Origin: Baffinella frigidus
Taxonomy: Eukaryota > Cryptophyceae > Cryptomonadales > Baffinellaceae
Length of the DNA stretch: 33,687 bases
Reading direction: 5' to 3'
Assembly (NCBI GenBank): GCA_026770585.1
Contig: MU646306.1
Span: 1,358,480 to 1,392,166 of the forward strand
A program made the position numbers and the translations under genes. Under the pieces are notes generated by a model. That model ran no database searches, was not told the origin of the DNA, and was given only the letters and a program-made list of their open reading frames with translations. Each line of letters starts with the position of its first letter. Position 1 is the stretch's first letter. Shown in pieces: positions 395 to 25,035 of this stretch.

Positions 395-3300
395 CCCGGA
401 CAAGCGCGTGCAGACGGGAAAAACGCGCTTCCGGGAGGAGCCGTCCGCCTCCGGGGCGTCGCGGCTGGAGGTGAGCTCGGGCGTATACGAATGATAGCAC
501 GGGCATATACGTATACTAAAAGAATCAAACACCATCCTCGATTTGATCCACTTCGGAGGATTCGGATTCTGGGCGTTCGCCTGTCCTGGGATCCATCGCC
601 TCCCGTGTGGGGGCGCATGCTGTATGTGCCTTGGAACATGACCATGCCAGCCAGCCAGCCTGCCTGCCTGCCTGCTGCGTTGAGGGATGCAACGCCTGTG
701 GAGTATATGATGGATGAAACGCGTATTGAGTTTTTCCTCGAGTTTTTACGGGGGGTGGTTTGCAGGATAGGTTGGCGGACACGGAGCGTTGCTGGATGCA
801 AGGCCTGTGGAGCAATTGATGAGTTTTTCGCGAGATTTGACGGGGGGTGGTTTCCAAGCTCGGAACATGGCGTGCACGCTTGCCTGTCGCCTACATGGAC
901 GAAACGCCTGTACCGTGTAGTGTTTCACTATTTCCTCGTTCCTAAAACATTTCACTATTTCCTCGAGTTAAATTCATAGACATTGTATCACTCAACTCAA
1001 GGCTAAAGGGCCTATCTAGCACCTGTATCGAGAATAATAAAGAAGAAGAAAAAGAAGAAGAAAAAAAATCACTTCATCCTCGAGTGTTTACGGTGGGGTG
1101 TGGTTTGCAGGAAGGGTGGGCAGAGACGGAGCTGCTGCGGGTCTCGTCGCTCTTCCCCACCAAGGACCTCCTCCCGAACATCTCCCCGCGGTCAGGGTGC
1201 CCGAGCCCTCCGGTTTACATGTATGTGTTTGTAGAGCGCTTGCGGGAAAACTTGTCGGATTTCAACGAGATTTTTTTTCAGGATTTCAGAGAATTTGTAC
1301 CAGAATCGTTTAGATGGACCGGTTTCATGTCACGTCCTTGTACAAAAGTTCTGAATTTCTGAAAATATTTCTCGTGAAATCCGACAGGTTTTCCCGCAAG
1401 CGATCTACCAGGATGTTTTCGATGCGCTACCGGTTTCGTCGAAATTCCATTAATCTTCACCCAATTTCTACAAAAACTGTCCGCCACGTCCAGTTCCCGA
1501 GAATTTAATTTACATACTTAGCTGAATGAAATCGCGAATGCTAGTACTCAGGGCTGGCGGGCGACCGCTTCGCGCCACCGCGTGCCTTCAGGAAGCACTC
1601 TGCGCGACGCAACCCTGTCCTCTTCTCGCTAATGGTAGGAATCGCTAATGGTGGTATTTACGGCAGGCGGGCGGTCGCTAACGTTAGTGATCGCGGCGGG
1701 CTAAACCCTAAACCCTAAACCCCAAACCCTGAACTCTAAACCCTCAACCCCCACCCTCTCGGTCTTCACCCTTAACCCTACACCATACACGCAGGCGAGC
1801 GATCGCGCACATGCTCCACGCCCACGGCTCCTGCAAGGTCTTTGCCCCTTCCGCTACCGAGCAAGGACGTCATTCAACCTTCAAGGATTTTGAAAACTTG
1901 CACCTGAATCCTAAGCGAAATGGACTTGTAAAACGAAAAAGCTGAGGCCAGATTCTGGCCTCAGCTTTTAAACGAAACCCCGGGTGCCTCGATAGCGGGA
2001 CTTGGTTGCAATTGCTGATTTGTGTGCACGTGCTGCTTCCGCTTGCCAGAAACAGCAAAGACTTTGCTGTTTGGACTTTGCTGTCCAGAAACAGCAGAGA
2101 CCTTACGCCCCAACCGCTCGGTCTCAACTCACCTTCCTCTTATTCGTGCTGTCAAGTTTTCCCTCGAGGTTTGGTGCTGCATTGCGTGCACTTGCTGCGT
2201 GCTGATGGTGCACTTGACGCTGGCTCGCTTGCTCTGGTTGCTCTTGGAAGCACTCCCAGCACCGAGAATGAGGCAGGGCAAAAACAAGCCTCAACAATTT
2301 AATAGGGTAACGGCCTGAAAATGGGGTAGTTAGGCCTACGGCATTGCCTAGGACCTCGAACCGTAGGCCGAGACTTTTTGGTCCTAGGATCCCTCGGCCT
2401 ACGGTACGAGGTCCTAGGCAATACCGTAGGCCTAACTACCCCATTTTCAGGCCGTTAGCCTATGAGTTTCATCCCAAGTGCACCCTCAGCAGCACCACCA
2501 CGCATGGCGTGGACCCACGGACCGCTACCGTATGGGGACGCATGCTGTATTTGCTGCGGACCATGACCACGCCTGCCAGCTGCCTGCCTGCCTGTGTTCT
2601 GAAGTTCGCATCTGACGCCTGAACAACTTTTGGCGCGGAGGTGGAGGCTGGCTTGCCCCGCGCCACTTGAACTCAATTCCGCCGCAGGAGCGTTCAAAAC
2701 ACGAGGTGGAGGAGGATAACGCCGTGGAAAAGCGCATGTCCGGGGGGCAGGGGCCGCTTCTGGCGCGCGCCGTCAGCGCTGACTCCAGCCTGATGTCTGG
2801 CGGTGAGCATTCATCGTACCTTTTTTTGCTAAGTTAATTTGTGTTAGGTATTTCTTTGCACAGTTCACTTGTAAGTGTCTTTGCACAGTTCACTTATAAG
2901 TGCCACCAACATTATGTTGGTAGCTTGCAGATTTGACGTGCCTTGCAAAGGTGCCTTGCAGATGTCACTTGCAATGGAATGGATATGGATGTTGGCAGAC
3001 CTATATCGAATCCATCTGGAAACAGCTCGTACGAGCGGCCGATACGGGGTATGAGGAGCACACTGCGTAGGGAATGTGCGGTTCTGGCGCTGGTTGTTTT
3101 GCAATAAATTACCAACCTCTCTGGTGACTTGGGAAGTTGACTTGCAAAGGTGACTTAGGAACTTGCAACGTTGCTTGAGAAGTGCAAAGCTGCCTTGCAC
3201 ACGTGCCTTGGGAAGTTGACTTGACTTGCGAAGTTGACAAACGTGACTGGGGAAGTTGACTGATATGTATGTTGGCAGACAACCCGTTCGCGTCGCCGAA

Positions 3301-4351
3301 TCACTCCCGGGAGCTGTACACGGATTCAGGGTACGAGACTGCCAAGGACTACCACTCTGCTATGGACGCCAGCCGCTCGCGCTGGGGGTGCTAAACCCTA
3401 CACCCTACACCCTACACCCTGGACCCGAAACCCGAGACTCTACACCCTACACCCTACACCCTACACCCTACACCCTACACCCTACACCCTACACCCTACA
3501 CCCTACACCCTACACCCTACATCACTCCCGGGAGCTGTACACGGATTCGGGGTACGAGACTGCCGAGGACTACCACTCTGCTATGGACGCCAGCCGCTCC
3601 CGCTGGGGGTAACACCGAAACCCGGAACCCAAAACCCGAAACACGAAACACGAAACTCGAAACTCGAAACCGGAAACCTGAAACCCTAAACCCGCAATCC
3701 CAAACCCTACACCCTAAACCCTGAACCCTCATCCCTAAACCCTAGACCTTGACTAAACACTAAACCTTAAATCCTAAACCCGAAACCCGCAACCCTAGAC
3801 CCCAAACCCCAATCCCCAAACCCTAGACCTCAAACCGCATGATTCTGCTGCGGCGGGTGCACACGGGCTGAATCTTCGCACGCACGAAATTCTCCCCTCC
3901 CCACTTTGTAACCCTACACCCTAAACCCTGAACCCTAACCGCAGCGCCGTCCGATGAATCCTCCCACGCAAGTACCGTAGATTACACGCGTGAGAAGGTA
4001 ACCTACGCGTAACCTACTACATGTCCCGCCAACGAGAAAGAACTCAATGGAAGAGCTCAACGAAAATAACCCTCCCCTCCCCCAAAACAGCGCCGTCCCC
4101 GAGATGCCGCACATCTGGGAGATGCATCTTCGCACGCAAGAAAGTATCCCCTCCCCACTTTGTAACCCTACACCCTAAACCCTGAACCCTCATCGCAGCG
4201 CCGTCCCCGAGATGCCGCACATCTGGGAGATGCCCCCTCCCGAGCAAGATGACCTCGCCCTGTCTCTGGTCGGGGGCGGGATGTCGTCCGTCAAAGGCTC
4301 CAACTTGCTCCGCAACATCCCGTCGATCAACACTGAGGTGCGAATATATAT

Positions 4352-4407
<56 letters not shown>

Positions 4408-4957
4408 GAATAGAAAGAAATAGAGCCCCCGTCTAGCTCTGCATGCGTCGGGTTGACTGATGCTGTTCTGCTGTAAAAGTCGTGAGATGCGGGCATGCGC
4501 GACTGGTAAGAGCGACACCACTTCCACCCAGTCCCGCGTCCCGAATCCGATCCGTCTCGCGTCTTACCGAATCCATGACGTCCGTGCCGGGTCTCGCGTC
4601 ATCCCAAATCCGGTGGGTACCGCATCCCGTCATCCCAAATCCGACCCGTCTCGCGTCGTACCACGCCAGAGTGGAGGAGGGGGTTGATTTTTTTTAACCA
4701 TGTCAGGACACGGTCTTTGACTTTTGATAACTCCTGCCTTGCAGAGGAATTGACTTTTGGCGACCCCTTCGAAGACTCTGGCGTGGTACCTACCGAACTG
4801 AGCGCCTCGCCCCCCTCCCTGCACGCAGGGCATGCTCGAAGGCGCGGGCGGGACAGACCGAGGGGGGGCAATGATGCGATCCGCGCTGCTGGCGACGCCG
4901 AGGACCCTTCGCCCGAATCCGGACAAGAATATCGAGCCGCCCAAGGCTGAAACGTGA
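395..4957 (+). CDS. Gene A: unrecognised low-complexity protein, 3' part, 7 exons
   Basis: I read seven plus-strand exons: 395-470, 1111-1212, 2688-2802, 3279-3387, 4199-4337, 4747-4785 and 4829-4957 (TGA at 4955-4957). Each has an AG acceptor and a GT donor, and the intron phases match at every join, giving 235 codons after a split first codon. The frame enters at 395 needing two bases from an upstream exon, so the 5' end is outside the window. The protein is rich in Ser, Glu, Pro and Gly. It contains stretches such as DNPFASPNHSRELYTDSGYE, AVPEMPHIWEMPPPEQDD and ELTFGDPFEDSGV, with no membrane segment and no motif I can name; it looks intrinsically disordered. The donor of exon 2 (1212) is the least certain: it was chosen because it keeps phase 0, and a GT at 1197 would break the frame. 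The last intron is only 43 nt. The function is unknown and I do not assign one. Confidence 0.62.
600..900 (+). repeat. Degraded repeats, including a decoy of the exon 2 acceptor
   Basis: At 752-790 the sequence GGGGTGGTTTGCAGGATAGG continues with TTGGCGGACACGGAG. This is a decayed copy of the true acceptor region ending at 1110 (GGTTTGCAG then GAAGGGTGGGCAGAGACGGAG). Further partial copies lie at 838-880. A separate segment at about 600-675 (GGGCGCATGCTGTATG..ACCATGCC, then TGCCTGCC tandem) recurs at about 2525-2600. Confidence 0.55.
1237..1402. mobile_element. Foldback MITE in gene A intron 2
   Basis: Terminal inverted repeats of about 35 bp, CGCTTGCGGGAAAACTTGTC at the left and its complement at the right (GACAGGTTTTCCCGCAAGCG, one mismatch), enclose about 95 bp. 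There is no coding capacity. It begins 24 bases after the gene A exon 2 donor. Confidence 0.75.
1680..1790. repeat. CCCTAAA-type telomere-like array
   Basis: Degenerate CCCTAAACCC repeats (about 1700-1770) inside gene A intron 2. They are interstitial, with unique sequence on both sides, so this is not a chromosome end. C-rich in the sense of gene A. Confidence 0.7.
1937..1969. repeat. Perfect 16-bp hairpin
   Basis: AAAAGCTGAGGCCAGA at 1937-1952 and its exact complement at 1954-1969 are separated by one base. It lies in gene A intron 2. Possibly a minimal foldback element; no gene context supports a terminator role. Confidence 0.7.
2302..2463. mobile_element. Near-complete 162-bp palindrome (MITE)
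   Basis: The left arm starts ATAGGGTAACGGCCTGAAAA and the right arm ends TTTTCAGGCCGTTAGCCTAT. The arms pair over about 57 bp with few mismatches, and an inner stem (ACCGTAGGCCGAG / CTCGGCCTACGGT) extends the pairing almost to the centre. Noncoding, in gene A intron 2. Confidence 0.8.
3395..3810 (+). repeat. CCCTACA/CCCTAAA array enclosing a duplicated exon end
   Basis: Perfect CCCTACA 7-mers run from about 3445 to 3520, followed by degenerate ACCCGAAACC repeats from 3610 onward. Embedded at 3522-3608 is an 87-bp copy of the 3' part of gene A exon 4 (3279-3387), ending in its own GT donor at 3609. The copy lacks an upstream AG acceptor and changes one Lys codon (AAG) to Glu (GAG). Confidence 0.8.
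3862..4198 (+). repeat. Tandem duplications of the gene A exon 5 acceptor
   Basis: The acceptor plus exon start (GCAG then CGCCGTCC) occurs with exon-like starts at 3945, 4091 and finally 4199, the true exon. The copy at 4091 preserves 34 bases of exon (CCCGAGATGCCGCACATCTG in the middle) before running into a duplicated upstream segment, CATCTTCGCACGCAAGAAA. That segment also occurs near 3868, so the duplication unit spans intron and exon. Confidence 0.8.
4345..4405. repeat. (AT)n microsatellite
   Basis: About 24 uninterrupted TA dinucleotides at 4355-4403, starting shortly after the gene A exon 5 donor (4338). Able to extrude as a cruciform; noncoding. Confidence 0.9.
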
Positions 4958-5041
4958 GAACCCAGACCACACGAGGCTGTTTCATTCCGCATTCCTCAAT
5001 TTGAACCCCGGGTGTTAAATTGTGTAGTAATTTTTACCTGT
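4958..5041. other. Gene A 3' flank
   Basis: This AT-richer sequence follows the TGA of gene A. I see no canonical AATAAA polyadenylation signal and no further exon. Confidence 0.4.
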
Positions 5042-5084
5042 TTGGTCACGTGGCTACACGCTTTCCGTGTAGCCACGTGACCAA
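5042..5084. repeat. Perfect 19-bp hairpin downstream of gene A
   Basis: TTGGTCACGTGGCTACACG and its exact complement are separated by CTTTC. Two more perfect hairpins follow at 6116-6155 and 6196-6222. It lies about 90 bases past the gene A stop, so it may be transcribed as part of the 3' UTR; a role in 3'-end formation is speculative. Confidence 0.75.
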
Positions 5085-5689
5085 CTCCGCACACAACGCC
5101 TACACTCAGCTTTTATTATGGGTGCTTCGGCAGCCTCGTATGGGAGTCCGACTGTTGATTGGCGCGTGTTGTTTTGGTACAAGGTGATATCACCCCGGTG
5201 CTAAACCTGCGCGTGGCAGGCAACGGTGGAGGACTCTGAGGACACAGTTCCGTGTAGGATGACCCAAGTGACGTTATCCCCAGAGGGCATGTTGACTGAG
5301 CCGAGCAGGGGGTTCTCTCGAGCGTATGGTCGCAGTATGGTTGAGGGTTGAGGTTTTAGGGTTTAGAGTTTTTTTATGTTTCGACGCCATAGAGGCCTCC
5401 GGTCATTGTCTTTAACTAGTAGCTAGTGACCACTTTACACCCTGTGTCTCGCCTTTCGCGTGCCCGCACTCCTCATAACCTGACCCCTCCCCTCCCACAA
5501 CAGGCAACTATCCCTGATGCACGAAATGCAGCGGCTCCAAGCGCGCGGGTGCCGTCTCACACGCCCGTCCCCCGGGCCCTTCGGGCTCTCGCGATCAGAG
5601 GCAAGTCAGGAGCGGTCGTACCTGGCTGTGTGTGGGATGGGAAGGACGATGGGCACGCCGTTCTCCCTTGTGGTAACCCCCTCTGAACC

Positions 5690-5881: not shown

Positions 5882-6003
5882 TACAGGGGTACCTCGCTCA
5901 TAAGAAAGCGCCCACCCCCATAGGACCACCATAGGGCCTTAGGCATAGTCCCACTATAGAGTCCTAGGGGGGCGCAGTTTCTGATGAGCGAGGTACCCCT
6001 GTA
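5882..6003. mobile_element. TA-flanked foldback MITE, family 1, copy 1
   Basis: Starts TACAGGGGTACCTCGCTCAT and ends with the near-exact complement (ATGAGCGAGGTACCCCTGTA), with a palindromic interior around CCTAGGG/CCATAGGGC. Length is 122 bp. The terminal TA on both sides suggests TA target-site duplication, as in Tc1/mariner-related MITEs. Four more copies occur in this window. Confidence 0.88.
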
Positions 6004-7181: not shown

Positions 7182-7317
7182 TACAGGGGTACCTCGCTCA
7201 TAAGAAACCGCCCCCCCCCTAGGACTCTACTGTAGGCCCATGCCTGGGGCCCAGTAGGCCCATGCCTAGGTGGCCCTTGGAGGGGGGGGCGTTTCTGATG
7301 AGCGAGGTAGCCCTGTA
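7182..7317. mobile_element. MITE family 1, copy 2
   Basis: Same termini as copy 1 (TACAGGGGTACCTCGCTCAT; the right end is ATGAGCGAGGTAGCCCTGTA, one mismatch). The interior is longer because of a duplicated GGCCCATGCCTAGG segment. Confidence 0.85.
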
Positions 7318-8452: not shown

Positions 8453-8575
8453 TGCAGGGCATTACCTAGCTCATAAGAAACCGCCTCCCCCTAGGACACC
8501 ACAGTAGGCCTATGCCTAAAGCCTCATGGTGGTCCAAGGGGGGGGGCGTTTTCTTATGAGCGAGGTACCCCTGTA
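8453..8575. mobile_element. MITE family 1, copy 3
   Basis: The right end is intact (TTATGAGCGAGGTACCCCTGTA-type) and the left end diverged (GCAGGGCATTACCTAGCTCA). It has the family's palindromic CCTAGGACC..GGTCC interior. Likely the oldest copy here. Confidence 0.8.
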
Positions 8576-8960
8576 GGAGCGTCTCACTGCTGGACACGGA
8601 GACCCTCAATCTGGGGTTCGCGAGGCCCGAAGGGAGGGTGGTGCTCGCACATAGTGTGAGCAGAAAAATGAGGGGCGCGAAAGGCCCGAAGGGGGAGAGG
8701 TGCTCGCACGTGGTAGCACCTCTGCGCGTGAGAGCGCAGCTCACGCATGGAAGCCCTGAATGTGGGGCTCGCGAGGCCCGAAGAGGGAGAGGTGCTCGCA
8801 CATGGTGTGAGCGCGTCTGCACGCGTGAGCGTGGAGGCCCTGCATCTGGGGCCCGCGAGGAGGCGAGGTGCTCGCACATGGCGTGCGCACCTCTGCACGC
8901 GTTAGCGTGGAGGCCCTGCATCTGGGGCCGTTTGCGCCGCTCACGCGAACAGTACGTTCA
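8576..8960. repeat. Minisatellite 3' of RAD21
   Basis: Four to five units of about 70-80 bp share GTGCTCGCACATGG, GCGTGAGCGTGGAGGCCCTG and CGAGGCCCGAAG. Open frames run through it on both strands because the unit is GC-rich; none has coding support. Confidence 0.75.
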
Positions 8961-8972
8961 GATGCGTGACTG

Positions 8973-9017
8973 TACGCGTGAGCTTCTCACGAGCTTCTGG
9001 AAAAAAGCTCACGCGTA
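8973..9017. repeat. Inverted repeat spanning the RAD21 stop codon
   Basis: TACGCGTGAGCTT at 8973-8985 and its exact complement at 9005-9017 flank a 19-base spacer. The right arm includes the RAD21 TGA (9009-9011). In the transcript this would fold into a 13-bp stem over the stop codon and early 3' UTR. It may simply be a stray copy of the exon end in inverted orientation. Confidence 0.6.
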
Positions 9018-12000
9018 GAGGGACGTGTTCTCCGTAGGCTTGATCGCAAGGTCGCCGTACTCCTCCTCCTGCACGATCTCCAGCACGTTCTCGTTCCTGC
9101 GCCACACACACAGTCAGTGTTCGGAACCTCGCGTTTGAGAGAGGGATTCACGACATGCATGGGGGCCATCTCCAGCACGTTCTCGTTCCTGCGCCACACC
9201 AACAGTCAGGGTCCGGAACCTCACGCTTGGCAGCGAACCAACCGTCAGGCACTCCTCCTCCTGCACGATCTCGAGCACGTTCTCGTTCCTGCGCCACACC
9301 AGCAGTCAGTCATTGACAGGCATCCATCGACACCTCAATTTTGATAGTTCGTGTGGCACATGAACCGTCAGTCAGCGAAACCTCGCGTTTGAGAGAGAGA
9401 TGCAAGACATGCATGAGGGCCATCTTCATTACATTCCTGTTTCTGTTGCATACCAACAGTCAGTCATTGGAATCTCACGTTTGAGAGTTACTGCGCCGCA
9501 CCAACCGTCAGTCATTGGAACCTCACGGTTGAGGGTTCCTGCGGCACACCAACCGACAGTCATTGGAACTTCACGTTTGAGATTTCCTGCGGCACACCAA
9601 CAATTAGTCAGTCGTTGGAACCTCACGTTGGAGAGAGTGATGCAAGTGACCCATGGGGGCCAGATTCGTCATGTGAAAGGCAAGGGTGCCGCACTTGGAA
9701 GGTTGTGATGATGATTTTCAGCGAGTTGATGCAAAGAAGGGGATCGGATCATCGTTCAGAGAAAAGGGGAGGGAATGCTGACTTGAGAACGAGGAGGGCG
9801 TAGAAGACGCGGGCGGCCGTGCGCTTGGTCGTCGTGGGTCCGCTCACGATCCTGAGGGGGGGGGGGGGGGGGGGGTTGTCAAGTGCCACAATTTTGAAAC
9901 CAGGGATCATGAGGGTGACGGTTTGTCGTGTGCTGGGGGGGGTGACAGGAGTTTGGGCAAACAGTCAAGTTGTCAAGGAGGAGGAGGAGGAGGAGGAAGA
10001 TGAGGAGGAAGAGGAGGAGGAGGCGGAGGAGGAGGAGGAGGAGGAGGAGGAGGAGGAGGAGGCGGAGGAGGCGGAGTAGAAGAAGGAGAAGGAGGAGGAG
10101 GAGGAGAAGGAGGAACCTCTGGAAGGAGAGGACCGATTCAGGCTCGGGGAGCTTCACGGCGATCTGCCGCGCGACCGAGACCGCGAATTCGGACAGCCTC
10201 TGCGGAGCGGGGGAAGCACGTTGGGGTTTAGACGTGAGAGGCACGTGAGGGTTTAGGGTTCAGGGATTGTGCGACCGAGACCGCGAACTCGGACAGCCTC
10301 TGCCGAGCGGGGGAGACACGTTGATGTTTAGACGTGGGAGGCACGTTCTAAAGGGTTGATGGTTCAGAGGTTGTGCGACTGAGACCGCCAATTCGGACAG
10401 CCTCTGCCGAGCGAGTTTGGCACGTTAGGGTTTAGCGCCTAAGGGTTCGGGGGCTGCATTTCTGAAACCGCGAACTCGGACAGCCTTTTCCGAGCGGGGG
10501 AGACACGTTGGGGTTTAGACGTGAAAAGCACGTTCTAAAGGGTTGAGGGTTCAGAGGTTGTGCGACTGAGACCGCCAATTCGGACAGCTTCTGCAGAGCG
10601 AGTGTGGCACGTTAGGGTTTAGCTCCTAAGGGTTCAGGGGTTGCATTTTTGAAACCGCGAACACGGACAGCCTCTGCCGAGCGGGGGAGACACGTTGGGG
10701 TTTAGACGTGGGAGGCACGTTAGAGTTTAGGGTTCAAGGGTTGCGCGACCGAGACCGCGAACTCGGACAGCCTCTGTCGAGCGCGCGAGGGCGGTTCAGG
10801 GTGTAGGGTTTGCCGGTTTAGGGTTCAGAGTTTGCCTCGAGGGAGGCACGTCATCTCACACGCAATTCGGCATCTCTTTCCAACCACCATCTCATGCGAA
10901 AGCATGCGAGACCAGCTGCTTTACAAAGGGTGCGAGGCAAGGGGTGACGGGGGGTACGCGGGGAGGTCTGGGGATGAACCCCATGTAGGCATAGCCGGAG
11001 TGACTTTACACACGTCACGTCCTCAAAGTATTACTGCAGAGGCGGCGCACCTGGGTGAGGACGGCCTGCGAGGGGTTGGTCTCCGGCTCCTCCCGAAGGC
11101 TGGCGTTCGAGTACACCCCCGAGTCGGCGTCCCCGTCCGCCGTCAGGTTCCAGCCCCCTGGATGTGTGTTGGGGATTAGGGTGTATTGGGTAGTGTGTTG
11201 GGTGTAGGGTTTAGGGTCTGGCATTTAGTTAGAGTTTAGTGTTTAGTGTTCAGGGTGTTGGGTTTGGGGTTAAGGCGCGACTTGGCGTTTGGGTTTCGAC
11301 TTAAGGGTTTCGGGTTTCGGGTTTAGGGTTTAGGGTTTCGGGTTTAGGGTGTGGGGTTTAGGGTTTGAGGTTTAGGATGTAGGGTTTAGGGTGTACCGTC
11401 GTCGAGGCCGCCGCAGGAGGTTAGGCGCGACTTGGAAGAGGGGAAGGTTTTGAGGTTTACGGTTCAGGGTTTAAGTTGTAGGGTGAAGGGTGTAGGGGTT
11501 AGGGTTCACCGTCGTCGAGGCCGCCGAAGGACGTGAGGCGCGACTTGGAGGAGGAGGCGATCGAGTTGCGGTCGTTGAGGGAGTCCATCTCGAACGCGCT
11601 GGTGCGGAGGTTGGGGGGGGGGTTGGGGTCAGCGATATCCTCAAAGGAGTTTCGGGTTCAGGGTTGACAGTTGACGGAGGGTTGCGAGGTCAGTGATTTC
11701 ATCTTCAGATGGAGGCTCCTACTACATGAACTAGCGAATAGAGTTGGAGGAGGAGGTGATGGAGGCGCGGTCGCTGAGGGAGTCCATCTCAAACGCGCTG
11801 GTCAGGGGGGGTTAGGGTTGGGTGGGGGGGGGGGTTGACGGGGGGCTGCGAGTTCACAGGTCACATCTCCGGAGGATCCTCGGACAAAAACTAGCGATCC
11901 TCCAGAACTGGCGACTCTGAATAGGTGTAAGTGTATGGTTAGAAACGCAGTACATGATTGGTGGAAGGGTTTGGGGTTTACGGTTTAGGGATCGGGGGCC

Positions 12001-15000
12001 TGGTGGCACTAGGGTGTGGGGGTAGGGGTAGGGGTAGCAAGTAGTGGGTCAGGGTCAGGGTCAGGGGGGTGGGGGGGTAGGGGGTTAGGCGCAAGGGTAT
12101 GGGGTTAGACGTAGGGTCAGGGTCCGTGGGTTAGGGGGGTAGGGGGCTAGGGGCAAGGGTGCGGGATTAGGGGTAGGGTCAGGGTCAGGGGGTTCGGGGG
12201 TTAGAGGGTTAGGGTAGGGGGGTAGGGGTGAGACCTCGGGACGTCGAAGGCGTCGGACGAGGAGTTGGTCTTGCTGCGCGGAAGAGGCTGCTTGAAGCCG
12301 CTCCCCTCCTCGCTCGCCGCGCGGATCGCCTCCGGGTCCTGATAAGGGTGGATATTTGGTGTAGGCTCCTCTTGTTGGCAAACTCTCAGCCCACAACCGG
12401 GTCCTAAGAGCGAGAGGCCACTTTACTGAATACAGGCGTGCAGACACGACAGCGTCAAGCTCCACCAGAGGCCACGAGTGGTGCATGGGTTGTGAGGGAC
12501 CTCGCTTCCGTAGCTAAGGAGAGAGGTTTTCAGATAGCAAATGGTCACGGGGCTGGGAGGAGGAGGAAGCACTCCTTACAAACCAAGGATCCTCAGGGTA
12601 AAGGTGTGTTTCGACAACACGAGGAGTCGGGGGTGGGATGAGGAGGAACCTCGCTGCCGTAGCTGAAGGACACGCCGTCGCCGCCGCTTCCGCCGCCCGA
12701 GCTGTCGCCGCCCATGCCTGCGCAGGGAGGATGCGTCAGGCGGGGTTCTCACAGGAGAAGCAGGAGTTGCGGAGATGCTGGATAAGTACGGTTTATGGTT
12801 TTGTTTGTGGGTGATGGGCCAGACGTTTACGAGTGATGGTTTATGATTTAGAGGTTAGGCGTTGACGGAGGGTGGTTTAGGGTTTAGGGTTTAGGCATGA
12901 GGATTTAGGGTTTGGGCTTTTATGGGGGAATGGTTTAGGATTTAGGATCAGGGGTTGAGGGTTGAGGGGTTAGGCGTGTACGGGTGATAGTTTCGGGGTG
13001 TTGGAAGAGATAAGGTCTCTCGCTCTGACCTCTACCCTCCGCAGGATCACTGGTTATTAGGGTTCATGGGTCCGGTTACGTAGCAAATCATGAGGAATGA
13101 GTGAGATGAGGCAGGGCTTTTTCACAGCAGCAGCAAGGTAGGGCGACTTGCGGAAGGGCCAGAGGAGTACCTCCAAGGTCGCCGTCGATGTGGCCCGATA
13201 TAAATATAGATGTATGGATATATAGATAGATAGATTTACAAAGATAGATACATATATGGATGCATAGAAAGATAGATGGATTGACATAAATCGATAAATA
13301 GATGTATATATATGTATAGATAGATAGATAGATAGATAGATGACCTCCGAGGTTGCAGTCGATGGGGCCCGTGTCCATGTCCACGTTGCTCTCGCGTCAG
13401 AAACAAGTCAGTGAGGCGGGGTTTTCTCGACGCGGTAGCAAGTTAGGCCTCTGGCGGAAACGCTAGAGAAGGTTCAGGTTTTGGTTGTAAAGTTGTCCTA
13501 AACCCTATACCCACCCATAAACCCTCACACCTCCGATGTCGAAGTCGATATGGTCCGTGTCCATGTCCACGTTGTAGTCGTAGCCCTCCTGGATCTCGCC
13601 GTCGGCCGCGTCGCCTGAGTTAGGGTTTAGGGTTTGGTGGTTAGGGGTTTGGGTTTTGGGGTTTGGAGTTGGGGGGTTGGGGTTTGGGGTTTGGGGGTTT
13701 GGGGTTTGGGGGTTTGGGGTTTGGAGTTTGGGGTTTGGGGTTTGGGGTGTGTGGCTCAGAGTCTAGGATTTTAGGTTTGGGGTTTGGGGTATAGGGTTTA
13801 GGGTATAGGGTTTAGGGTCTAGGGTGACCGGTGCGCTGCTTCTTCGCGCGAGTGGCGATGGGCGTCTGCGCCACGTTCTCTTTGAACCCGTACATCCTAC
13901 CCATTGGGAAAGGGTTCAGCCACGGGGGGTAGGGGGGGAAAATGTGTTTCAAAGAAACGAAATGTGATGCGGCGGCAGATCATTATGTGTGGACAACTAT
14001 GAGGTGAGCGTGTCTGACTGTAGATGCGGTCTCTGGGCAATCACAGCCGGCGCACGGGCGAATCTCTTGGCAATCACAGCAGGCGCACGGGCGCTTTGCA
14101 GGGCCATCAAATCCTGCTTTGGACGTTACTTTGTCTGAGGGCAGAAAAGAAGACACCCTCTCCAGCCAACTAGGAGTGCCATTTCACATTAATAGGAGTG
14201 CCATTTCACATTAATAAGTCTCTGCCTCACCAATCCATGGCTGGAGAGTAGGGAGCGTTTTCACGTAACAAGACCCTCCTTGTTGGCTAGTGTCTGGCAA
14301 CGTATGACCGCGAATGTGACCTCGCAGGTGGTCCACTCCGATCATCCAAGAGAAAAAAGGCACGGAGGGGTGTCGTCAGGCAAGATGAACCTGAAGATCT
14401 TGTTGAGCTTGCGGCCGAAGCCCGGCGTGAGCGGGCCAGAGATGATGTCGGCGACGGTCCCCGTGGTGTACTTCTTGTAGTGCTGCGGCTGCCGGCAGAT
14501 GTGCGCGGACACCCACTCGTTGTCCTGGATCCAGAGCCGGCACTCCTGTGAACGCACCCGCACGTTAGTATGGTAACCGCCTACATTCAGGGAAGCCTAT
14601 GGTGTTGACGACGACTACTCGGTGTCCTGGATCCAGAGGCGGTATTCCTGCCCCACGCGAAGGATTTAGATGGTGGGGGATCTGCGCCCTCACATTAATA
14701 GGGTGCACGTCAATAGGGTGTCCAACGGTAAAGCGTAGGGCTCACTCGTTGTCTTGGGTCCAGAGCCGGCACTCCTGCGAAAGCCCCAACTTGTTAGTGG
14801 GGTAACCGCCTGCATTCAGGATAGTTACGCCTACGGTGTTGACTGTTACTGCTCGTTGTCCTAGATCCAGAGACGGCTTTTCTGCCCCATACGAAGGAAC
14901 CAATAATTAGTAGGGTTGCAATAGGCCACACACGCACACACTAACACTCACAAGTTCACGAGAGGCGGGGCAAGGGTGGTACGTCTTCAGGACACACACA

Positions 15001-16033
15001 CGCACATACGCGCGCGCGCACACACTAACACTAACACACTAACACACTAACACACTAACACACACACGCACGCGCGCACGCGCGCACGCGCGCACGCACA
15101 ATTGCACACATGCACACATGCACACATGCACACATGCACACATGCACACACGCACACACGCACACACGCACACACGCACACACGCACACACGCACACACG
15201 CACACACACACACACACACGTGCACGCAAGATCACGAGGTTCAGAGGAGGGGCAGAGGAGGGGCGGTACGTCCTTGGACAGCTGGACTTGCGTGTCGTAC
15301 TCACGGTGTAGTGTTTAGGTCATAGTGTAGGGTGTAGGGTGTAGGGTGTAGGGTGTAGGGTGTAAGGTGTAGGATGTAGGGTGTCGCGTGCCAGGTGTAG
15401 GGTGCAGAGTATATGGTATAGGGTGTCGGGTGTAGGGTGTAGGGTATAAGTTGTCGGGTGTAGGGTGTAGGGTGTAGAGTGAAGGTTGTCGGGAGAAGGG
15501 TGTAGGGGTTGTACGTCCTTGGGAAGCTGGACTTGCGTGTCGTACTTTGGGCCCTTGCGCATCCTCTTCTTCTGCTTGCTCTTGGTCGCCTGCGCGGGTG
15601 TAAGGGGGTTGGTGATTCAGGGTTTGGGGTTTAAGGGGTGCGTCTTTGTGCGCTGCAGGTCCTTTGCCCACAGGACGTGTGTCTGCAGGGGTTTAGGGGG
15701 TTGAGGATCTAGTCTTTAGGGGGTTGAGGGTGTAGGGAGTGTGGGGGGTTCGATGTCGCGTCATGCAGTTCCCTGACCCAAAGGTTTTTTCACCTGCAGG
15801 TGTTTAAGGGGTTCAGGGTGCAGGTGGTTTAGGATTTCGGGTTTAGGGTTGAGGTGTGAAGGGGTTTAGGGGTTAGGCGTAGGGGTAAGGCGTCATGGTG
15901 TTTAGGGTTTAGGGTTTAAGGGGTTTAGGGGGTTTAGAGTGTAGGGTATGTGATCTAGGGGGTAGGGCGTGCACCGGCTCGTCCTGCGGCTCCACGTCGT
16001 AGTCCACCTGGTTGAGGGTTGAGGGTTGAGGGC

Positions 16034-16082
<49 letters not shown>

Positions 16083-19000
16083 GTAGGGCTGAGGGTTAAG
16101 GGGTTGAGGGCTAGGAATTACCTCGGGGAGGGGGGCGTCGTCGTAGCCGTAGCCATCGTTGGGGTAGTCCTGGTTTGGGGTTTAGGGTTCGGGGTTTAGA
16201 GTTTAGGGTTTAGGTTTCAGGCTTTAGGGGTTTGTGGGGGGAAGGTTTAGGGTTCTGTCTGACGGCAGGATACAGAAGAGCGCTCAGTGAAGACGAAATG
16301 CTTCAGCACAAACACAGGCTTTGCAGCATTCACACCACCCAGACTGTCAACTGGAGAACAACCCGACTGAGACAGAGCTAGAATGAGGCAGGGCGATGTC
16401 TGCAGACGACAGGCGTTCGCACAAACAAGGGAGCGTAGAGAGGGCACCGCAACCTGGTCCTGCTGCTTACTGCAGAGAATGTCTACGAACAAATGGCTGT
16501 CAGCACAAACACGGGGGTGTAGAGAGGGCACGGCGACTTGGTTCTGCTGCTCGCTGCCCCATCACCGCAGAGGATGTCTACGAACGAATGGCTGTCAGCA
16601 CACACACGGGGGGTGTAGAGGGCACGGCGACCTGGTCCAGCTGCTCGCTGCCCATGACAACAGACCCCGCCCCGCCCGAAGAGGACGCCGCGCCGCTCTT
16701 GGAGGACGCGCCCGCCTTGGAGAGCGAGCGCGCCGTCGAGGTCACGTCGTCGACCGAGCCCTGCCGTAGGAAGTTGTGGTCAGTGGCTGGGAGGCGAGCG
16801 CGCCGTCGAGGTCACGTCGTCGACCGAGCCCTGCCGTAGGAATTTGTGGTCAGTGGGAGGCGAGCGCGCTGTGGATGGCACGACGTCGACTGAGCCCTGT
16901 CGTTGGTGTTAGCGGGCAGAGGTTCGAGGATACACCCGCCTTGGACAGCGAGCGCGCCGGCAAGGTCACATCTTCACCGAACCCTGTTGCGGGGGGTTGG
17001 GGTTTGGGGTTTGGGGTTTAGGTCGAGGTCACGTCGAGGTCACGTCGTCCCCCGAGCTGTGGATGTCACGTTGTCGACCGAGCTCTGTTTAGGGTTTGGG
17101 GTTTGGGGTTGGGGGTTCGGGGTTTGGGGTTTGGGGTTTGGGGTTTGGGGTTTGGGGTTTAGGGTGTGGGGTTNNNNNNNNNNTGGGGGTTCGGGGTTTG
17201 GGGTTTGGGGTTTGGGGTTTGGGGTTTGGGGTTTAGGGTGTGGGGTTTGGGGTTTGGGGTTTGGGGTTTGGGGTTTGGGGTTTGGGGTTACGTTAGCACT
17301 AGCCTGTGGAGCTAAAAGACAGGTGGTGTAGGGTATAAGGTGTTGGGTGTGCTGTGTGGGGTGTAGGGTGCAGGGTCAACGCAGCACTAGCGTATGTGGC
17401 GAGCAGGCAGATGGTGTAAGGTGTAAGGTGCAGGGTATATGCTTTCTGGTTTTGGGGTTAGAGTGAGAGGTGGTCGATGTAGGGGTGGGAAGTGCAGGTG
17501 ATGACACTACCTGGTAGCCATGGTGTTGGGTGTGGGGTGTAGGGTGTAGGGTGCAAGGTGCAGGGTATGTAGGGTGTATGGTGTAGGGTGTAGGGTGCAG
17601 GGTATAGGGGGTAGGGGGTAGGGGGTAGGGTGTAGGGTGTAGGGTGTAGGGTGCAGGGTGCAGGGTGCAGGGTGCAGGGTGCAGGGTGCAGGATATGTAG
17701 GGTGTGGGGTGTAGGGTGCAGGGTGTAGGGTGTCGGGTGTAGGGTGTAGGGTGTAGGGTGTAGGGTGTAGGGTGTAGGGTGTAGAGTGTAGGCAGGACCT
17801 GGTAGCCGGCGTCGTTGGCGTTGTAGTCGTCCATGGCCACGTCGAGGGGGTTGTCGCCGATCTCGCTCACCGGCTGGTTCGAGATCAGGTCCGACCTGGG
17901 CACGGTTTTGGGATTAGGGGAAAGTCCTGGGAAAGATTCACGCGGGAGAATATATCGAGACGTTTTGCTTTCCTGGTTCAGGTTTAGAGTTTAGGTTTAG
18001 GGTTTAGGGTTTAGCGTGCTTTAGGGTTAAGCGTGGTTTAGGGTTTAGGTGTACGTTGTAGGGTTTAGGTTTATGGTGTAGGGTGTAGGGTGTAGGGTGT
18101 AGGGTGCAGGGTGCAGGGTGTAGGGCAACCTCGTTCTTCCGCAAAGCTGTATCTTTAGGTTGAGGTTGATGGGTCAGGGTTTAGCGTGTTGGGTGAAGGT
18201 CTAAGGTGCAGGTTTCAGGTGTAGGGTGTAGGGTGTCTGGTGTAAAGTGTAGGGTGTTGGGTGTTGGGTGTAGGGTTTCTGGTTGAGGGTGCAGGGTGTA
18301 GGGGTGTAGGGTTCGTGGTGTGTGGTTCAGGATTCAGAGTTTGTGGTTCACGCACGGGGGCGTGGGCACACGGGGGCGGTGCATGGGCGTAGGGGTTTGC
18401 AGGTGTGTGGTGTGTGGTGTGTGGTGTGTGATGTGGTGTGTGGTTTGTGGTTCAAGGTTCACGGGGGCGGGGCACACATGAGGTCGTCGTCAAGGCCCGT
18501 GGTAGACGAGCGGTCCTCCCCGCGATCTGGGAGGTTGATGTTGATGTTGATCCGCGAGGACCGCCCCGAGCGCCCAGAGGGGAGGGAGCCTGTAGGGTGT
18601 AGGGTTAGAGGTTAGAGTTCAGGGTTTAGGGTTTAGGGTTTTATGGTTTAGGGTTTAGGGTTTGGGGTTTGGGGTTTGGGGTTTAGGGTTTAGGGTTTAG
18701 GGTCTAGGGTTTAGGGTTTAGAGTTCAGGGTTTAGGGTTTGGGGTTTGGTTTTTGGGGGTGTAGGGTCTGGTAGGGTACGGAAAGGTAGGGTAGGGGAGG
18801 GTGGGGTAGGGTAGGGTAGAGTAGTTAGGGTGGGGTAGTGTAGGGTAGGGTAGGGTAGCGAGCCTTGGACGCTGGAGCCGGTGTCGAGCTGGGAGGCGAG
18901 CTGGGAGTCGCCGCCGTCGAGCCAGTCGGGGAACCTGCAGTACATTTCAGAGCGTTATCACACCAATCCAAGGCTTACGCGTGAGTGTACTAAAGAGGAT

Positions 19001-20641
19001 GAAACCGACCGACCGACCGACCGACCTGCAGGGATGTGAGTGGTCCACTTAGTGCGGCTCACTTAAGGGCGGGTTGTCAAATCGGGGGGGGTAGAGATTG
19101 CGGCACGTGACGTCAGAGGTGGGAGTGGTGCAAGGCCGAGTGCTCCCGCAAAAGTGCAATTTGTGGTCTCTGTGATTTGTGAGGCTCACGGTGGTTGACT
19201 CAAATGGAGCCAACACACTGAAATGTGTGTGGCAATGCGCGTCTCGAGCAGAGGCACAATCTCGCCAGGGGAGGCAGGGGGGCGCATCGACAGCAGCAGA
19301 TGTTGCAGGGGGTCGCATTACCATCAGCAGATGTTGCAGAGAGACGCATCAACATTCGCAGAGGTTGGCGGGAGACGCATCAACATAGGCAGCGGTTGGA
19401 GAGAGAGTGGAGGGAACGCACTCATCAGGGATGTCGAGGAGGAGGTCGTACTCCAGGATATGCCCGGGGAGCGTGATCGCATCGAGCCGCGCCTGCTCCG
19501 CGGTGTTGGGGGTTGGGGGTTGGGGTCTAGGAGTGAGTGGTTTTGGGTTTTGGGTTTGGGGTTGGGGGTTTGGGCTTAGGGGGGTATGCGGATATGGCTT
19601 GCCACACTGCACGCTCTACCACAATCCTCCCCCGGGGCATGTGACTCACCTCGGATCTCTGGGCTACTGGGACTCACCTCGGATGTAGTACATGTGACTC
19701 ACCTACATGTGACTCACCTCAGACTCATGTAGTACATGTGACTCACCTCGGATCTCTGGGCTACTGCATCGGATCTCTGGGCTATCCAGCACCCGCGTAG
19801 GCCCTTGGATATGGTCTCAGTAACGTGGATATGCTCTCAGTGACTTGGATATGGTCTCAGTGAAAGTGGATATGTGGGTCTACAAACTGAAGTGTGTGTG
19901 GCAATGCACGTCCCGAGCAGAGGCACAAGCAGGGAACCGCATCGTCGTGGAGGCGGGGTCTACTCAGCACACGTGCATGTTGCGGATATGCCTTGCCACA
20001 AAGGAGCAATTTGCGGCGTGTGCTTTCGGTTTCCCGGCGCGAGTGTTTGCGGCTTTGGGCGTGGAGGTGGGGGGGGGCACAGACCGCCTCGCTCTTCTTG
20101 CTGGACTTGGGGAGGTCGATGGACTCGCTGGCCGGGCGGAAGGACAGGGTGAGCCGCTCGTGCGTCTTCTTGATGTCCTCTTGGAAGAACTTGACCTTGA
20201 AGGAGTGGATCCGAGTATAACCAAGGAGAAGCTGCCCGTTGAGGCGCAGCGCATACCTGCGCGAACCCCGCCCCGCGTGGCGTCAGCATCCTCATCATCG
20301 GGCACGAAGCGCCTGGGGAAAGATCAAAAAGCGCGGGAGGGGAGCTGGGGGGAAGCCTGGCTGGGGAGAGGGCGGGAAACGTACACGCGGTTCTGATCGG
20401 GCTCGATGATGGCGTTGAAGGAAGAGTCGTAGTCGAACTCCTCCACGGCCTTCTTGTTGATCTTCTGAGGTTGGTGGCACGCTTGCCACAATCTGCCAGG
20501 GATCGACGGCACCACAGTCAGCCAGGGATCGACAAGCAGGGGCACTTTGTCCCAGGAACCAATGCGCGGCAAGCAGGGATGGGGAGTGTACTTGCCCAGC
20601 GGTCCCTTGCCTTTCAAGTTAAGCTCGGAGGTGTAGAACAT
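9009..20641 (-). CDS. RAD21: Gene B: RAD21/SCC1 alpha-kleisin cohesin subunit, 21 exons, complete
   Basis: RAD21/SCC1 closes the cohesin ring by bridging the SMC3 neck (N-terminal domain) and the SMC1 head (C-terminal winged helix), and it is cut by separase at anaphase. Exons, in transcript order: 20641-20592, 20492-20385, 20256-20085, 19492-19422, 18934-18864, 18589-18478, 17895-17799, 16760-16632, 16169-16122, 16007-15975, 15589-15515, 14545-14391, 13896-13829, 13614-13531, 12717-12650, 12338-12235, 11598-11510, 11157-11051, 10199-10117, 9851-9783, 9096-9009. They total 1881 nt, which is 626 codons plus TGA, with matching phases throughout. Family members are about 560-640 residues. The N-terminus [17 protein letters not shown] matches the kleisin start, [18 protein letters not shown] matches the conserved RIY-type core, and the end [19 protein letters not shown] matches the winged-helix C-terminus. 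All junctions are GT-AG except the exon 5 donor, which must be GC to keep the frame. A meiotic REC8 identity is less likely but not excluded. Confidence 0.92.
9097..9650 (-). repeat. Tandem copies of the RAD21 last-exon acceptor
   Basis: On the minus strand the acceptor plus GAACGAGAACGTGCTGGAGA recurs with exon-like starts at 9188 and 9288, besides the true one at 9096 (spacing 92 and 100). The 9288 copy keeps the open frame through ATCGTGCAGGAGGAGGAGTG before diverging. More degraded units, CACCAACCGTCAGTCATTGG and similar on the plus strand, continue to about 9640. Confidence 0.8.
9855..10116. repeat. Poly-G and GGA/GAG purine-strand microsatellites in RAD21 intron 19
   Basis: About 20 G at 9857-9876, then a GGA-rich run from about 9978 to 10116. 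On the transcribed sense strand these are pyrimidine tracts (C and CCT), placed just upstream of the exon 20 acceptor and just after the exon 19 donor. They create long false Glu/Arg or Leu open frames. Confidence 0.85.
10200..10800 (-). repeat. Six extra tandem copies of the RAD21 exon 19 acceptor
   Basis: On the minus strand CAG followed by AGGCTGTCCGA(G/A)TTCGCGGT recurs near 10300, 10403, 10487, 10591, 10672 and 10772, in addition to the true exon start at 10199. Spacing is about 80-105 bases. Each copy keeps roughly 30-40 bases of exon plus its CGCTC..CAG acceptor, then returns to CCCTAAACC-like intron. Only the most 3' copy continues into the full exon. Confidence 0.88.
11195..11400. 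repeat. TTTAGGG-type array in RAD21 intron 18 side
   Basis: Degenerate GGGTTTAGGGTTT repeats on the plus strand (CCCTAAA on the RAD21 sense strand) occupy intron 17 between exons 18 and 17. No exon is visible. Confidence 0.8.
11396..11440 (-). repeat. Duplicated 3' end of RAD21 exon 17 with donor
   Basis: Minus-strand TCCAAGTCGCGCCTAACCTC then GGCGGCCTCGACGACG followed by GTACACC is a diverged copy of the true exon end at 11510. It lies on the intron side and contains an in-frame TAA, so it cannot serve as coding sequence. Confidence 0.8.
11740..11815 (-). repeat. Duplicated 5' end of RAD21 exon 17 with acceptor
   Basis: Minus-strand CAG followed by CGCGTTTGAGATGGACTCCC and then TCAGCGACCGC copies the true exon start at 11598. 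The order on the transcript is decoy acceptor first, then the real exon. Confidence 0.8.
11995..12230. repeat. GGGTAGGGG / GGGTCAGGG array
   Basis: G-rich on plus, C-rich on the RAD21 sense strand; fills the 5' part of intron 16. It gives false proline-rich open frames. Confidence 0.75.
12235..12338 (-). other. RAD21: RAD21 exon 16 with separase-type cleavage motif
   Basis: This exon opens with Asp-Pro-Glu-Ala-Ile-Arg (DPEAIR), predicted residues 448-453, an exact match to the separase consensus [DS]xExxR known from animal RAD21 and yeast Scc1. It is followed by [20 protein letters not shown] and SSDAFDVP, an acidic and serine-rich stretch typical of the exposed kleisin linker. The position, about 70% along the protein, resembles the second separase site of human RAD21. 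That the site is cut is inferred from the motif and its placement, not shown. Confidence 0.6.
12490..12530 (-). repeat. Duplicated 3' end of RAD21 exon 15 with donor
   Basis: Minus-strand AGCTACGGAAGCGAG followed by GTCCCTC copies the true exon end AGCTACGGCAGCGAG then GTTCCTC at 12650. Confidence 0.7.
12780..13010. repeat. TTTAGGG-like degenerate array in RAD21 intron 14
   Basis: Diverged GGTTTAGGGTTTAGG and GGTTGAGG units. No exon is visible. Confidence 0.65.
13141..13400 (-). repeat. Duplicated 3' ends of RAD21 exon 14, separated by GATA repeats
   Basis: The donor context CTCGGAG then GT (true donor after 13531) recurs at donors near 13344 and 13170. The exon-derived sequence AACGTGGACATGGACACGG is kept in the first copy. 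Between them is a (GATA)n/(ATAG)n microsatellite at about 13200-13345. Confidence 0.8.
13620..13828. repeat. GGGTTTGGGGTTTGG array in RAD21 intron 13
   Basis: It fills the whole 214-nt intron between exons 13 and 14, apart from the splice sites; C-rich in sense. Confidence 0.85.
14600..14900 (-). repeat. Three extra copies of the RAD21 exon 12 acceptor
   Basis: Minus-strand CTGGATCCAGGACA with a preceding CAG acceptor recurs near 14648, 14775 and 14882, besides the true exon start at 14545 (about 100-130 bp apart). Copies carry TACCGCCTCTGGATCCAGGA-like exon starts and share a GGTAACCGCCTxCATTCAGG intron segment on the plus strand. Confidence 0.85.
14930..15225. repeat. (CA)n / ACACGC / ACACATGC microsatellite
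   Basis: About 290 bp of alternating purine-pyrimidine CA, CGCA and CATG repeats in RAD21 intron 11. It is a candidate Z-DNA-forming tract, and open frames through it are artefacts. Confidence 0.9.
15263..15514 (-). repeat. Duplicated RAD21 exon 11 end plus GGGTGTA array
   Basis: Minus-strand AGTACGACACGCAAGTCCAG, then CTGTCCAAGGAC and GTAC (15263-15301), copies the true exon end at 15515. Between the two lie TGTAGGG repeats (about 15310-15510). Confidence 0.85.
15605..15970. repeat. GGTTTAGGG-type array in RAD21 intron 10
   Basis: Degenerate units including two partly similar TTTG(T/C)CCACAGG..GTGT(G/T)TCTGCAGG segments; no exon is visible. Confidence 0.65.
16008..16110. repeat. GAGGGTT array in RAD21 intron 9
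   Basis: Perfect GGTTGAGGGTTGAGG 7-mers fill most of this 114-nt intron. Confidence 0.85.
16400..16631 (-). repeat. Duplicated 3' ends of RAD21 exon 8 with donors
   Basis: The true exon end (GCGAGCAGCTGGACCAG then GTCGCCGTGCC, donor at 16631) is copied twice downstream, near 16533-16555 and 16455-16475. The sequence GATGTCTACGAACxAATGGC on the plus strand repeats with it, so the unit is about 90 bp. Confidence 0.8.
16790..17090 (-). repeat. Five extra copies of the RAD21 exon 8 acceptor
   Basis: Minus-strand CAG followed by GGCTCGGTCGACGACGTGAC (true start 16760) recurs near 16835, 16897, 16982, 17058 and 17083 with increasing divergence. The first copy is nearly identical for about 50 bases. 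Confidence 0.85.
17090..17300. repeat. GGGTTTG array with 10-N gap (17174-17183)
   Basis: A homogeneous TTTGGGG array in RAD21 intron 7, interrupted by a small assembly gap, so its length in the genome is unknown. Confidence 0.85.
17500..17798. repeat. TGTAGGG array and a copy of the RAD21 exon 7 end
   Basis: GGGTGTAGGGTGCA repeats run from about 17530 to 17790. At 17508-17524 the minus strand reads GGCTACCAG then GTAGTGTC, a copy of the true exon end GGCTACCAG at 17799. Confidence 0.75.
17950..18477. repeat. TTTAGGG, TGTAGGG and GTGTGTG arrays in RAD21 introns
   Basis: Degenerate repeats fill intron 6, the 582 bases between exons 7 and 6. No additional exon with a coherent frame is visible. 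Confidence 0.7.
18598..18863. repeat. TTTAGGG to GGGTAGGG array in RAD21 intron 5
   Basis: TTTAGGG-type units at 18600-18750 grade into GGTAGGG units at 18770-18858. Intron 5 starts with GC rather than GT if the exon frame is kept. Confidence 0.8.
19000..19421. repeat. GACC microsatellite and CAGCAGATGTTGCAG minisatellite in RAD21 intron 4
   Basis: (GACC)n at about 19003-19026. At 19268-19400, units GACGCATCAACAT(A/T)(G/C)GCAG and GCAGATGTTGCAG repeat four to five times. A segment GTGTGTGGCAATGC..GAGCAGAGGCACAA at 19222-19260 is repeated at 19893-19930, on the other side of exon 4. Confidence 0.7.
19505..19870. repeat. Repeats between RAD21 exons 4 and 3
   Basis: A GGGTTGGGG tract is followed by GTGACTCACCTCGGATCTCT-type units (19627-19790) and GGATATGGTCTCAGTGA units (19806-19872). 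No exon. Confidence 0.7.
20085..20641 (-). other. RAD21: RAD21 exons 1-3: N-terminal kleisin (SMC3-binding) domain
   Basis: Exon 1 (20641-20592) begins with the ATG and encodes 16 residues plus AA. Exon 2 (20492-20385) supplies the rest of that Lys codon and then [19 protein letters not shown], which corresponds to the IWLAAHWDKKLTKAHVFE-type segment of animal RAD21. Exon 3 (20256-20085) gives [20 protein letters not shown] through to [20 protein letters not shown], the kleisin N-terminal core including the FRP..(V/I)DLP motif. The domain covers residues 1-110 or so. The ATG at 20641 is chosen because MFY is the near-universal start of SCC1/RAD21 proteins and no upstream in-frame kleisin sequence exists. 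The two introns here are short (99 and 128 nt), unlike those further 3'. Confidence 0.93.
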
Positions 20642-24482: not shown

Positions 24483-24604
24483 TACAGGGGTACCTCGCTC
24501 ATAAGAAACCGCCCCCCCCCTAGGGACCACCATAGGGCCCTAGGCATGGGCCTGCTGTAGGTTCCTAGGGGGAGGCCGTTTCTTATGAGCGAGGTACCCC
24601 TGTA
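24483..24604. mobile_element. MITE family 1, copy 4
   Basis: 122 bp, with perfect ends: TACAGGGGTACCTCGCTCAT at the left and its exact complement at the right, flanked by a further T/A on each side. The best-preserved copy here, so probably the most recent. Confidence 0.9.
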
Positions 24605-24884: not shown

Positions 24885-25005
24885 TACAGGGGTACCTCGC
24901 TCATAATAAACCGCCTCCCCCTAGGACCCTACAGTAGGCGTATGCCTAGGGCCCTACGGTGGTCCTAGGGCGGTGGCAGTTTCTTACGAGCGAGGTACCC
25001 CTGTA
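24885..25005. mobile_element. MITE family 1, copy 5, just 3' of gene C
   Basis: 121 bp with the same termini (one change near the right end, TTACGAGCGAGG). It lies 30 bases past the gene C TAG, so it probably sits in the 3' UTR or terminator region. Confidence 0.88.
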
Positions 25006-25035
25006 GAGAACCGCCGCTCTGCACCACGCCACCCT

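Follow-up and report, generated by a model that had tools for sequence, protein, structure and literature searches.

Results

A cohesin gene and its neighbours

We analysed a stretch of 33,687 nucleotides of Baffinella frigidus DNA (hereafter the window; contig C4:1358480-1392166 of an assembly of 382 Mb in 1364 contigs) that holds a RAD21/REC8-type cohesin gene, and we describe copies of exon-intron junctions that lie inside the introns of this gene and others. Judged from its sequence, the window belongs to the nuclear genome of a cryptophyte-like alga and holds spliceosomal genes. Three genes were modelled in it:

9009..20641, minus strand: RAD21/REC8-type cohesin gene (RAD21), 21 exons, 626 amino acids, frame unbroken, 0 internal stops
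395..5600, plus strand: gene A, 8 frame-continuous exons (395-470, 1111-1190, 1795-1837, 2688-2802, 3279-3387, 4199-4337, 4829-4953, 5504-5600)
25036..33430, minus strand: gene C, C-terminal part of an H+-pyrophosphatase (H+-PPase; PF03030, 3.4e-14), 11 exons modelled, frame unbroken, 5' part beyond the model

Pfam found both Rad21_Rec8_N (2.4e-18) and Rad21_Rec8 (3e-11) in the RAD21 protein, on the model that preceded correction of the exon 1/2 boundary; the two domains in one protein identify a RAD21/REC8 cohesin subunit. Hemiselmis andersenii, Guillardia theta, and Hanusia phi rank 4, 5, and 6 among 11 matches to RAD21, and on the basis of these ranks the best homologs that carry an organism name were taken to be from cryptophytes, as expected of a cryptophyte nuclear gene. 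The top homolog, protein P0001 of a relative, is 65% identical across its full length and aligns along the whole RAD21 model; the exon 1/2 boundary was set from this alignment. A spliced protein-to-DNA alignment of P0001 against the locus found all 20 acceptors and 19 of the 20 donors, with mild circularity, as our purpose-written aligner used splice-site weights trained on our own models of the three window genes. The one donor missed, that of exon 8, lies where P0001 aligns with gaps, and the site picked there is not any mapped copy. No Pfam match was found for gene A.

The RAD21 introns are GT-AG in 19 of 20 cases; intron 5 is GC-AG. By eye, the donor side of this intron (donor at 18864), GCTCGCTACCC, looks like the beginning of the following exon, GCTCCCTCCCC. 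At 25220-25305, gene C carries a tandem repeat within the reading frame of its last exon, with three copies of a 27-nucleotide (nt) period that read PSFEPSM in translation.

Outside the window we modelled CCT1 on contig C94 and a second H+-PPase on contig C273, giving five genes over three contigs in all. CCT fragments on C6 and C39 (two) were left out of the gene models, and searches for VCP, HSP90, and RPB2 elsewhere in the genome gave no usable gene.

Exon edges are copied into the adjoining intron

We compared the 30 exonic nt beside each junction with the adjoining intron, with the other introns, and with the wrong-side intron, on the opposite side of the same exon. Masked BLAST self-comparison misses copies in masked stretches, and another alignment was used instead. 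In RAD21, a strong copy of the edge was present in the adjoining intron at 10 of 40 junctions, and 760 comparisons with the remaining introns of the gene gave none. The ten positive edges (donors of exons 8, 11, 14, 15, and 17; acceptors of exons 8, 12, 17, 19, and 21) score 29-60 in their own intron, and the maximum across the 760 other-intron comparisons is 23. An earlier note on this DNA had named eleven RAD21 junctions. Ten are confirmed; the exon 7 donor is weak, scoring 19 in its own intron versus 16 elsewhere, with no match at the alignment threshold. The same note had counted one to six degraded copies per junction, and this is what we find (1 to 6, with six at the exon 19 acceptor). 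The copies are diverged, and for most of them the alignment continues through the splice site. The mapped copies are:

9168..9199, minus strand: copy of the RAD21 exon 21 acceptor (real junction 9096), 32/32 identical, AG kept
9251..9299, minus strand: copy of the exon 21 acceptor, from alignment
9535..9549, minus strand: copy of the exon 21 acceptor, short and weak (score 25)
10271-10313, 10375-10413, 10464-10500, 10562-10600, 10651-10687, and 10743-10783, minus strand: six copies of the RAD21 exon 19 acceptor, AG lost in 10464-10500
11395..11441, minus strand: copy of the RAD21 exon 17 donor, filler of 4 nt
11741..11802, minus strand: copy of the RAD21 exon 17 acceptor, from alignment
12495..12520, minus strand: copy of the RAD21 exon 15 donor, from alignment
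13343..13388, minus strand: first copy of the RAD21 exon 14 donor, from alignment
13169..13197, minus strand: second copy of the exon 14 donor, from alignment
14617-14650, 14743-14787, and 14852-14877, minus strand: three copies of the RAD21 exon 12 acceptor edge, from alignment
15266..15301, minus strand: copy of the RAD21 exon 11 donor, beyond a TGTAGGG-type array
16532-16571 and 16449-16473, minus strand: two copies of the RAD21 exon 8 donor, from alignment
16787-16842, 16856-16906, 16926-16986, 17032-17057, and 17059-17087, minus strand: five copies of the RAD21 exon 8 acceptor edge, from alignment
20512..20532, minus strand: copy of the RAD21 exon 2 acceptor, beyond the list of the earlier note, 26-bp period, AG lost
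3521..3609, plus strand: copy of gene A exon 5 (last 88 nt and donor), preceded by a CCCTACA array; unit of about 220 nt, offset 221
30833..31302, minus strand: five copies of the gene C exon 3 donor, boundaries 31302, 31174, 31069, 30945, and 30833, the last with GC for GT

Genes A and C had been said to behave alike, and they do: own-intron edge copies are present at 2 of 14 and 7 of 20 junctions, respectively. Of the seven, the donor of gene C exon 7 is doubtful: its score of 29 in the adjoining intron is exceeded by one of 32 elsewhere among the introns, and mapping gives no junction-reaching copy. Pooled over the three window genes, 19 of 74 edges are copied in the adjoining intron versus 3 of 2528 comparisons with non-adjacent introns and 0 of 68 with wrong-side introns. 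CCT1 has copies at 5 of 38 edges (0/612 other introns, 0/36 wrong-side), all five among the 32 edges of its well-supported part, and the H+-PPase gene on C273 at 4 of 14 (0/60 other introns, 1/12 wrong-side). The lone wrong-side match is consistent with a copy that holds 66 nt of an exon of 78 nt. In all, 28 of 120 junctions in the five genes have copies, with CCT1 counted by its well-supported part. Most copies have diverged from the exon by substitutions, some with indels, and the identity of the exon part is 79-100% (mean 0.91).

The rule that copies always lie on the intron side agrees with the wrong-side counts, but it is true by definition and gives no evidence of directionality: of the two copies that a duplication across one edge would leave, one continues into the exon body and the second is intronic by definition. 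To call the introns built from such copies was an overstatement, as the mapped units sum to about 1.9 of the 9.8 kb of intron in RAD21 (with overlaps entered twice and a small number of weak copies omitted), and arrays with a period of up to 14 make up 31%. Introns with copies are longer than those without (median 686 versus 393 nt; n=19 and 34 introns, p = 9e-4). The data support dense junction-spanning duplication that goes with longer introns; they do not support the special junction mechanism attached to this claim.

No clear preference for junctions

We scored complexity-filtered 30-mers for a copy within 1 kb, in the genes and in sampled genome regions (12 drawn, of which 4 were all N and eight were used). 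A local copy was found for 30 of 103 junction windows with 10-20 exonic nt (29%), for 37 of 135 other junction-spanning windows (27%), and for 487 of 1734 intron-interior windows (28%). The counts were 17/60 for exon windows near the edge, 43/183 for deeper exon windows, and 122/776 in the window outside the three modelled genes. The eight genome regions gave 392/1578 (25%), ranging from 6% to 41% by region, and a cross-region control gave 1/396 (0.3%). The refuting test set by the earlier note thus counts against a junction-specific mechanism, with no excess at junctions over intron interiors or sampled genome. Of 2439 comparisons of RAD21 exon 30-mers with non-adjacent introns, 2 matched. 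Inside RAD21 exons, 0 of 135 such 30-mers were copied.

The place of the junction within the copied unit fits a uniform distribution (Kolmogorov-Smirnov p 0.30 for 11 donors and 0.35 for 12 acceptors; small samples). A first impression that donor copies end at GT was dropped, because it did not hold once alignments were extended leniently, when the junction falls in the unit as uniform placement would have it. The closest copy is no more than 45 nt from a head-to-tail position at 9 of 23 junctions, as in gene A exon 5 with its unit of 220 nt and offset of 221. Taken together, the position in the unit and the similar rates of local copying mark the junction copies, by these measures, as an edge effect of general local duplication. 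A dedicated junction mechanism is not supported.

Strong decoy splice sites

We mapped a set of 40 copies in four genes. A usable splice dinucleotide (GT, GC, or AG; GC in one case) is kept in 36, so the rows of decoy splice sites described earlier are indeed there, and 21 of the 40 score above the real site or within half a bit of it. If a usable copy were spliced, a premature stop would be predicted in 35 of 36 cases, and the resulting exon would measure 180-742 nt. The median length of real exons is 88 nt; they reach 222 nt inside the models, with 300 nt for the last exon of gene C, which slightly overlaps the decoy-exon range. Among 35 copies found from exon sequence alone in the three window genes, 32 keep GT or AG versus 29.0 expected under neutral decay. 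Decoy dinucleotides are neither purged nor protected.

Judged from the gene models, backed for RAD21 by the relative's protein, ordinary splicing apparently ignores the intronic look-alikes and uses only the outermost site. The simplest rule that would pick the real sites is that the shortest exon wins (exon definition). We rejected this rule as independent evidence: any intronic copy lengthens its exon, so "shortest exon" restates "outermost site". Nearby competing splice sites are also a feature of NAGNAG-type tandem sites and of intron sliding. The present copies resemble NAGNAG-type sites in that sites compete, but they lie 70-659 nt from the real site and their predicted use nearly always brings a premature stop.

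Telomere-like hexamers in the introns are strongly sense-biased, with 145 CCCTAA versus 6 TTAGGG in RAD21, gene C, gene A, and CCT1. The introns of the H+-PPase gene on C273 have the same bias (35 versus 11). Possible reasons are that the C-rich repeat resembles a branch point with its pyrimidine tract, or that G-rich repeats in RNA disturb splicing.

Discussion

We propose, with a probability of roughly 0.8, that frequent local tandem duplication, retained where the mRNA is unchanged, explains the exon-edge copies. The genome would often duplicate units of roughly 25-220 nt locally and in tandem, and gene structure would have no strong influence on where they fall. Those that lie within an exon, or hold a whole one, would change the mRNA and mostly be lost. 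Units within introns or over exactly one exon edge would not alter the mRNA as long as splicing takes the outermost site (first donor, last acceptor), and would thus be kept, lengthen the intron, and decay neutrally. As the outermost site gives the shortest exon, exon definition is the likely selector. The data show the copies, how specific they are to the adjoining intron, their side, the lack of a clear junction preference, and the strength of the decoys; the duplication rate, the selection, and the splicing rule are what we infer in this explanation.

Several observations weigh against it. The intron windows of our rate test include the decoys themselves, so the classes are non-independent, and the sampled regions are uneven. 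At 14 of 23 junctions, the nearest copy comes with 61-515 nt of unmatched filler (telomere-like at some, by eye), so simple head-to-tail duplication would need later insertion or decay. A tandem repeat does occur in frame within an exon, the last of gene C (25220-25305). Finally, with each intron alone as the search space in four genes, copies were present for 24 of 106 edges and, among the filtered windows of intron interiors, for 247 of 1265, a ratio of 1.16 (bootstrap 0.73-1.83). This ratio, obtained with array-like windows dropped, is about twofold above a neutral steady-state simulation of uniform placement with the real exon and intron lengths (means 0.34-0.81): a value of 1.16 was not attained in any of 288 runs, and one of 0.73 in 39 of them. 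Simulations with growing introns gave ratios of 0.25-0.64.

This excess, greatest in gene C (edges 0.35 versus interiors 0.15) and CCT1 (0.16 versus 0.05), is what would be expected if junctions were preferred duplication sites, for example if breaks arose where composition steps between exon and intron, or in connection with transcription, and were then filled in. However, the edge/interior ratio falls to 0.58, within the simulated range, once array-like windows are kept and all intron windows count; RAD21 alone (edges 0.25 versus interiors 0.35) fits the simulation; the junction position in the units fits a uniform distribution, albeit in few donors and acceptors; and the search within 1 kb on either side found no enrichment. 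We therefore consider preferred junctions unlikely, although a modest preference may exist, as the ratio hinges on the array filter. The fuller version, in which a junction hot spot makes introns grow by recopying their own ends while the spliceosome tolerates equally strong decoys by a strict shortest-exon rule, seems to us similarly doubtful. Less probable still is that selection keeps the copies for a function, as decoys or as sites of alternative splicing. Their usable dinucleotides, and the 21 of 40 that match the real site in strength, would fit such a role, but retention of GT/AG is near neutral, use would almost always introduce a premature stop, and the RAD21 protein of the relative can be aligned over the full length of the model.

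The introns themselves might have been born by tandem duplication of exon segments that bear AGGT; introns are known to arise through this kind of mutation (PMC3443670). The birth signature is absent: the intron head resembles the next exon head in 0 of 53 introns and the intron tail resembles the previous exon tail in 1 of 53, so the copies look like the edges at which existing introns grow. The signature could have faded from introns that are old, and we hold such an origin to be very improbable. An assembly artefact is the least credible alternative. The assembly is gapped, with many stretches partly or wholly N, but most copies carry substitutions or indels relative to the exon, and they occur in genes on three contigs. 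As to introner insertion, exon-edge matches in other introns number 3 of 2528 in the three window genes, and a 341-bp probe (the end of RAD21 intron 20 and part of exon 21) matched its own place only, twice, in a search that skips very common words; no systematic search was made.

Frequent local duplication followed by retention in introns resembles known processes in part. That introns can be gained by tandem genomic duplication is accepted, with a review (PMC3443670) and a report of Drosophila cases (PMC2891723). Intron gain of this kind and the present case both involve local tandem duplication within a gene, hidden from the mRNA by splicing; here, however, existing introns grow at their edges and the copies repeat an existing junction. 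Rogers and Bendich (2025; PMC11782384) describe direct repeats of 4-30 bp near intron splice sites, compared between both ends of one intron. Repeated sequence at intron-exon borders is common to both cases, but our units are mostly 25-220 nt and one junction is copied into its own intron. We found no description of dense junction-spanning duplication in the open-licence literature searched, which does not imply its absence from print.

The process itself is ordinary; what is useful is its density, at about a quarter of the tested junctions. Each duplicated junction is a natural contest between near-identical splice sites, and the genome would allow splice-site choice, decoy decay, and intron growth to be measured directly, without engineered constructs.

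Other features

By eye, the window holds five copies of an element like a miniature inverted-repeat transposable element (MITE), about 115-135 bp long, whose ends are inverted repeats like GGGTACCTCGCTCATAAGAAACCGCC. A single scan of viral contigs for the exact pattern gave no match. The copies in the window lie at:

about 5884-6001: MITE-like element
about 7184-7317: MITE-like element
about 8455-8577: MITE-like element
about 24485-24604: MITE-like element
about 24887-25006: MITE-like element

Elsewhere in the genome, three of four tubulin matches (C931:78873-79505, C1176:66591-67097, and C99:232606-233112) lie in long open frames of 457-604 codons, in contrast to the exon-rich genes modelled here.

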